Of a stretch of DNA of 64,000 nt, positions 25,760 through 28,729 are shown in pieces. Positions within the stretch are counted from its first letter, which is position 1, and every line of letters starts with the position of its first letter. Both the position numbers and the translations under genes were made by a program. The stretch is from Verrucomicrobiota bacterium (GTDB lineage Bacteria > Verrucomicrobiota > Verrucomicrobiia > Limisphaerales > UBA9464): assembly GCA_947471985.1 (NCBI GenBank), contig CANIZL010000021.1:1-64000 (forward strand), given 5' to 3'. Below the pieces are notes generated by a model. That model worked only from the letters and a program-made list of their open reading frames with translations, was not told the origin of the DNA and searched no databases.

Positions 25760-25763
<4 letters not shown>
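24483..25763 (-). CDS. TPR-repeat protein with C-terminal multi-pass membrane domain
   Basis: 426 residues. The N-terminal approximately 200 residues contain about five TPR units (AELLFQQQRFDLAADQLRQL, AHALLGLCLAQSEKLADAE, SHANLGWTLLHSGKRKEAQ). The C-terminal half has about six hydrophobic segments (ILPVQILYISFVLLTWL, LIIAAAGFLALSLPVAG and others). The GTG start (25763-25761) overlaps the TGA of the AAA+ gene (25762-25760), giving GTGA and implying translational coupling. The soluble TPRs would present a scaffold at the membrane for the ATPase encoded upstream. Enzymatic function: none visible. Confidence 0.85.
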
Positions 25764-27205
<1,442 letters not shown>

Positions 27206-27362
27206 GGCCCTAGGGAAGCGGTCCGCCACCGGGGTGGCAACGGGGATCGGGCGTTGGCCCGGCAGATTTCTCCGCCTCGAGCCCGGCCACGGAAAATGCA
27301 GGGCGGCTCCGGCTTCGGTTGCCGTCCCCGAGTGCTCTCCTCAATCTATCGGCCCTCGGCAC

Positions 27363-27712
27363 ATGCTACCGCGGAATTCATACCCCCACTGGATCGGGTT
27401 GATTTTCGGCCTCGCCGGGCTGGTTCCGCTGCCATCGCCGCCCCCACCCTGGCCCGCTTTTATTTGATCGAGCGGTATCTCCAGACGGGCATCCTGCTCC
27501 ATTTCGATACCTTGGAACGACGCCGCTACGACGTGCAGTCCACCACCAATTTCGCCGCCCTGCAGCAACCCGTGGACGTCCACTCGCCCGATTGGACCAC
27601 CGTGTATTCCATCGGTCCCCTGCCCTTTCCCGACCACTACATTCATTTCGAACCCACCACCAATACCCCGGGCCCCGCGGCGCGGTTTTATCGGATCGTG
27701 GTTACGCCCTGA
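27363..27712 (+). pseudogene. Small secreted protein gene, apparently frameshifted
   Basis: The ATG at 27363 opens a good signal peptide start (MLPRNSYPHWIGLIFGLAG) but this frame stops at 27467. The adjacent frame, open to TGA at 27710-27712, supplies SAAIAAPTLARFYLIERY and then ILLHFDTLERRRYDVQSTTNF and a C-terminal FYRIVVTP, typical of secreted verrucomicrobial proteins. Joining the two by a single-base shift near 27417-27430 gives a sensible approximately 116-residue exported protein with an Ala-x-Ala cleavage site. As sequenced it is broken, or the read has a one-base error. The next gene starts 3 bp later. Family unknown. Confidence 0.5.
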
Positions 27713-27715
27713 CCC

Positions 27716-28729
27716 ATGCAAAAACACCTGCTCCGTCTGGGTGGAACGACCGTCGCGCTGCTGACCGCCTCCACCCTCGACGCCTGCGAACTGTGCGCCA
27801 TCTACCGCGCCGCCGATGCCCGCGGCGCCTACGGCAGCGGGTTCACCTTCACAACGGCCGCGCAATTTATGCCATACCGGACCGGGCAGTTCAACGGCGA
27901 GGAATTTCCGCGGGCCAACCCCGACTATCTGGATCGTTGGATGTTCCATTTCGTCGGCGGCTGGAACGTCACCGAGAAGCTGGGCATCAGTCTCAATATT
28001 CCCCTGGTCCACCAGTCGTATCAGCGGGTGGGTATCGATGATTTGACCCGGCCCCAGACGATCCGCGCCGAGGAAACGGGGCTGGGGGACATTTCGTTGA
28101 TCGGCCGCTATCAGGTGTGGCAGAGCACCGGCATGACGCTGGGCGGCTCGATCAATCTTCTCGCCGGCCTCAAGCTACCCAGCGGCGATACCGCACACCT
28201 CGATGAACAGGCGCGCCAACTGAGAATTTACGAGGGCATCGTCGGCCCCGGGCACAATCACGATGCCCTGGGGCCGGTGACCAGCGGGGTGCACGCCCAC
28301 GATCTGGCGCTTGGTTCCGGCTCCGTGGACGGCGTCCTCGGATTGACCGCCAACGCCCATTGGCAGCGCGCCTTTCTGAACGCCTAGTTTCAGTACTACC
28401 CGCGGATGGAGGGTGCCGGTGATTACCAGTACGCCGATGAGCTGATGGTGAGCGGCGGCCCGGGAGTTTTCCTGTGGCTGCGACCCAATTCGACGATCAG
28501 CCTCGAACTGAACGCCAGCTACGATACCGCGGGGCGGGACCGTTTGGGGGGCCGGCCCTCGGAGCACACCGGCATGACTGCCTGGTATCTGGGCCCGCGG
28601 CTGGCCTTCACGTGGAAGAGCCGTTTCAGCGCTCAGTTGGGCATCGATCTACCCGTCCGCATCGCCAATCGAGGGTTTCAAAGCGTGCCCGACTATCGAC
28701 TCACCAGCGGGATCACCTGGCGTTTTTAG
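27716..28729 (+). pseudogene. Outer-membrane beta-barrel transporter-like gene split by in-frame TAG
   Basis: One continuous frame runs from ATG 27716 to TAG 28727-28729, interrupted once by TAG at 28385-28387 (codon 224). Before the stop: a signal peptide, a CELCAIYRA segment, then alternating beta-strand sequence. After it, the same kind of sequence resumes at once (FQYYPRMEGAGDYQYADE, PGVFLWLRPNSTISLELNAS) and ends in SGITWRF, with the terminal aromatic expected of an outer-membrane barrel. A CAG (Gln) to TAG change is the simplest explanation. Full length would be about 337 residues. Without readthrough, the 223-residue product lacks the C-terminal strands needed for BAM recognition. Confidence 0.75.

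Follow-up and report, generated by a model that had tools for sequence, protein, structure and literature searches.

Positions 27716-28729 of the forward strand of the window (the whole stretch of DNA analysed, 64,000 nucleotides of contig CANIZL010000021.1 from a Verrucomicrobiota bacterium) are confirmed to hold a single beta-barrel gene split by one in-frame TAG codon, as an earlier note made from the sequence alone had proposed. This is most likely an ordinary gene being lost, not an altered genetic code, and we put the probability that the barrel gene was recently inactivated in this lineage at about three in four. The note had offered three readings of the stop: a gene that had just died, a sequencing error, or an amber codon that is suppressed or read through. 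Gene death is now the best supported of these, because the stop is private, the upstream partner is disrupted and other broken copies exist in the order, whereas the evidence opposes amber suppression. The literature listings searched held no entry on this barrel gene.

The interrupted gene and its predicted fold

The barrel frame opens with the ATG at 27716, is interrupted after 223 codons and then continues in the same frame for 113 codons to a second TAG at 28727-28729 (Table 1). Codon usage and GC content by codon position are undisturbed along it, the latter being 0.65/0.47/0.80 before the stop and 0.60/0.53/0.77 in the frame 28406-28729 after it. The continuation of the frame beyond the TAG is not a product of chance. 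Searched by itself, the 113-residue tail has homologues in 16 of 96 genomes, its own among them, at E <= 0.001. Over its full length the read-through frame can be aligned with 17 relatives, to which it is 35-53% identical, and its score of 511.8 bits against the family profile, of which the window protein is itself a member, is on par with those of intact members. The minus strand at 25760-27229 encodes a TPR and AAA ATPase protein whose middle is marked by some fifteen consecutive Asp residues.

Table 1. Positions of the interrupted barrel gene, its upstream partner and its downstream neighbour in the window
Feature	Positions	Strand	Basis
Probable leader (signal peptide) of the partner, in a different frame from the mature part; end approximate	27363..27450	+	Inference
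Conserved mature part of the partner, 4 bases before the barrel ATG	27458..27712	+	Retained beside the barrel at all six nearest named loci
Barrel gene up to and with the premature TAG: 223 codons, signal peptide among them, and the stop	27716..28387	+	Frame reading, homology
Premature in-frame stop (TAG, codon 224), within the predicted membrane strand formed by residues 219-228	28385..28387	+	Frame, relatives, model
Remaining 113 codons: last strands, C-terminal W-R-F and ordinary terminal TAG	28388..28729	+	Frame, homology, model
hisI (phosphoribosyl-AMP cyclohydrolase), intact neighbour, Pfam PF01502	28802..29194	+	Frame, Pfam match

The AlphaFold2 model of the read-through chain (mean pLDDT 85.0, pTM 0.81) is a barrel, confident outside the leader, with 12-13 predicted strand elements. 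Residue 224 falls within the strand 219-228, and the frame ends in W-R-F. In Foldseek searches, the model matched FapF (PDB 5o65, E 7.9e-14) and the COG4313/PF13557 channel Pput2725 (PDB 4rl8, E 1.1e-10) with TM scores by target of 0.66-0.72; the fold is alike, but the sequences are only 11-14% identical to that of the window protein. Defining features of the FapF secretion channel are a coiled-coil domain in the periplasm and a place in a fap operon that also encodes an amyloid substrate. Scanned apart, the two halves of the window protein scored 16 and 14.2 bits against Pfam PF13557, below the gathering score of 22, and no match to this model was listed for the three intact relatives scanned. 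Pput2725 is described in a passage of PMC4493636 as a 12-stranded monomer.

Outer-membrane proteins use a C-terminal aromatic residue for assembly. The TAG cuts off the remainder of strand 219-228, every later strand and the terminal aromatic residue. Ribosomes stopping there would release a 223-residue product lacking these elements and, judging from established outer-membrane protein biology, this remnant would fail to assemble into a barrel and would then probably be degraded.

Relatives, the upstream partner and broken copies in the order

At the column of the stop, 11 of 18 relatives carry Gln (10 as CAG, one as CAA) and the other seven Asn, Ser or Gly, in agreement with the earlier proposal of a simple CAG to TAG change. 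None of the 18 has a stop at this column, and neither does any of 29 loci taken from genome contigs, a set that overlaps the 18; one of the 29 has a stop elsewhere in the gene. Among the sequences compared, the TAG is thus private to this genome. Most of the named relatives belong to Verrucomicrobia assembled from metagenomes, part of them carrying the label Limisphaerales or Pedosphaera, and a few belong to other phyla. In the tree, the window protein forms the sister lineage to six proteins from its own family of genomes (support 100/99 for the seven) and sits on an end branch of median length; a second, intact barrel copy in the same genome (G000:C164) lies on a different branch. Of the 69 columns invariant in nine near relatives, 6 are altered in the window protein; the corresponding figures are 0 to 4 in the six same-family proteins and 5 to 8 in three more distant ones.

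A small gene lies immediately upstream of the barrel gene. Its mature part, which reads F-Y-L-I-E from 27458, is conserved in this position across the six nearest named loci, where a hydrophobic leader and the mature part are joined in one frame; in the window they occupy two frames. The one comparable leader in the window, read from the ATG at 27363, has a best 13-residue hydropathy of 2.32, compared with 0.85 in the frame of the mature part and 1.38 to 2.69 for the leaders of the six relatives, and the codon log-odds switch frame near 27420. Since the leader is poorly conserved, the case for a frameshift is made by hydropathy and codon statistics, from which the partner gene is probably frameshifted between its signal peptide and its mature part. 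No Pfam or NCBIfam model matched the region 27363-27712, and the partner protein was probably secreted.

Our data are consistent with a model in which the intact unit would have comprised a gene for a 12-strand-type outer-membrane channel and, just upstream, one for the small partner. A nonsense change would have placed a TAG in the middle of a membrane strand, and a frameshift in the partner would mean that the two-gene unit as a whole is decaying. As the partner gene appears to be frameshifted as well, the unit looks dispensable here. By neutral-decay arithmetic, a single lesion over 337 codons translates into some 0.007-0.03 neutral changes per site (an order of magnitude only), with an upper 95% limit of 0.03-0.15 depending on the assumed share of indels; taken with the median end branch, this suggests that the loss, if real, is recent relative to the divergence from relatives. 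We infer the loss of function, its recency and the reality of the partner frameshift from these patterns, and the sequence would also suit an isolated error or a gene that still functions, given a single barrel lesion, undisturbed codon usage and a median branch. Recent bacterial nonsense pseudogenes are alike in having a private in-frame stop, an otherwise intact frame and intact relatives, and the sole extra here is the suspected joint decay with the upstream partner.

The barrel family has matches in 88 of 320 genomes of the order. Among the 59 matches that reach 300 bits, a number counted by eye in the match listing, three contain a single in-frame stop each: the TAG described here, a TAA in G187 and a TGA in G256 (locus L067, G256:C9:35200-37200). 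The last of these replaces the conserved C-terminal Trp codon three residues before the end, and this copy may not be dead, as only its last three residues are lost. In G169:C230 (locus L072, 4300-7500), a member is split after about residue 68 by approximately 1 kb of other sequence that encodes most of another barrel-like protein, which is either a real insertion or an assembly fault. Six further copies are fragments inside contigs, without runs of N (G003, G073, G081, G107, G124 and G256:C42); the G003 copy, from the same family of genomes as the window, keeps the end of the partner and lacks about the first 200 codons of the barrel. The count of broken copies leaves out pieces at contig ends (G247 and G062) and the unclassified G086 and G251, and profile matches under about 45 bits, which look like the wider barrel superfamily, were left uncounted. 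The copies in G110 and G201 do not look broken (that of G201 is at a contig end), and an apparent break in G257 was dropped as it coincided with a run of N. At the contig-end locus L007 (G062:C18), a second, inverted copy of the gene end is present, apparently through faulty assembly. HisI, a domain of only 74 positions to which we give no weight as a control for the three stops in 59 barrel copies, matches in 285 of the 320 genomes, with no internal stop among the matches listed. The variety of stops and other lesions in separate genomes points to gene loss, not to a property of TAG.

The sequencing-error reading is the most credible of the alternatives. It holds that the TAG and the partner frameshift are sequencing or assembly errors, or the consensus of a minority strain, and that the unit is intact in the living cell. 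The genome is a 180-contig assembly (96.25% complete), a change of a single base explains the stop, the suspected frameshift lies close to a run of C near 27440, and the rest of the barrel frame is without signs of decay. Two independent errors would, however, be needed within about 1 kb of one two-gene unit, in a window with 39 called frames, many of them long and open, and the damage to the G003 copy of this unit, in sequence free of N, is beyond doubt. The two lesions in adjacent partner genes in particular make error the less likely account, and we regard it as unlikely.

A bolder proposal, to which we give little credence, is that the barrel and the small, probably secreted protein form a two-gene system of Verrucomicrobiota, so far undescribed, for export or uptake at the outer membrane, that independent lesions have switched it off repeatedly, and that the TAG here leaves a low, leaky supply of the full-length channel.

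TAG as a terminator in this genome

Slightly less credible still is that translation continues past the TAG, through a suppressor tRNA, recoding or leaky near-cognate decoding, to give the full-length channel. Beyond the stop the sequence keeps an intact, coding-like frame, near relatives most often carry Gln at this column, and the genome has a gene for the near-cognate tRNA-Gln(CTG); low-level near-cognate readthrough leaves no sequence trace. Belinky et al. 2021 (PMC7918605) have proposed that in-frame stops of bacterial genes are often read through, and the cases treated there resemble this one in that a lone stop sits in a frame with signs of selection otherwise. Their argument, however, is drawn from dN/dS < 1 around stops conserved in evolution, whereas the stop described here occurs in no relative, and readthrough would also leave the partner unmended.

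The decoding machinery lends no support to suppression. The search for a suppressor tRNA that the earlier note had called for came back empty, with a CTA anticodon in none of the 42 tRNA genes found in this 96.25% complete genome. RF1 (prfA) is present, scoring 454.8 bits, over the cut-off and without an internal stop. PylD had no match in the genome, and all PylS matches stayed under the cut-off, a pattern shared by 12 of the 13 ordinary control genomes with a match. A lineage of Verrucomicrobiota with reassigned UGA is mentioned in PMC13092985, the portion of which consulted here does not address TAG in this phylum.

Nor did in-frame TAG codons in other genes, also suggested as a check, come to light in the part of the genome scanned. 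A scan of 464 kb (400 kb of stretches plus the window, 7% of the genome) found 69 coding-like frames ending in TAG, an ordinary terminator in this sequence, and no other gene plainly interrupted by it. The thresholds of the scan were loosened until the known barrel interruption was recovered, and 28 continuations resulted, 13 after TGA, 11 after TAA and four after TAG. The four after TAG, which are those judged by eye, were the continuations of the barrel gene, of its second TAG into hisI, and of two others that appear to be neighbouring genes with their own starts; the barrel gene thus provides the only continuation that is not plainly a separate gene. Lastly, hisI shares the frame of the barrel, and TAG is the only stop codon that separates them, so that reading TAG as sense would also fuse the channel to hisI across 24 codons.

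The idea that the locus encodes two functional proteins, of 223 residues and of 107 residues starting at the ATG at 28406, is scarcely credible: although that ATG exists, it replaces a Thr found in all nine near relatives compared (T231M), the second piece has no signal peptide by inspection and would be part of a barrel, and the intact relatives are single chains and not, as the earlier note had allowed, two separate proteins.

Implications for annotation and for the order

A lone TAG in an otherwise intact gene can resemble an altered genetic code, and the tests reported here point the opposite way. Annotators of this genome would do best to flag the barrel gene as disrupted instead of entering two proteins. 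The small protein and the barrel form a conserved pair that several lineages of the order have lost, and so offer a modest starting point for work on surface functions that Verrucomicrobiota can do without.
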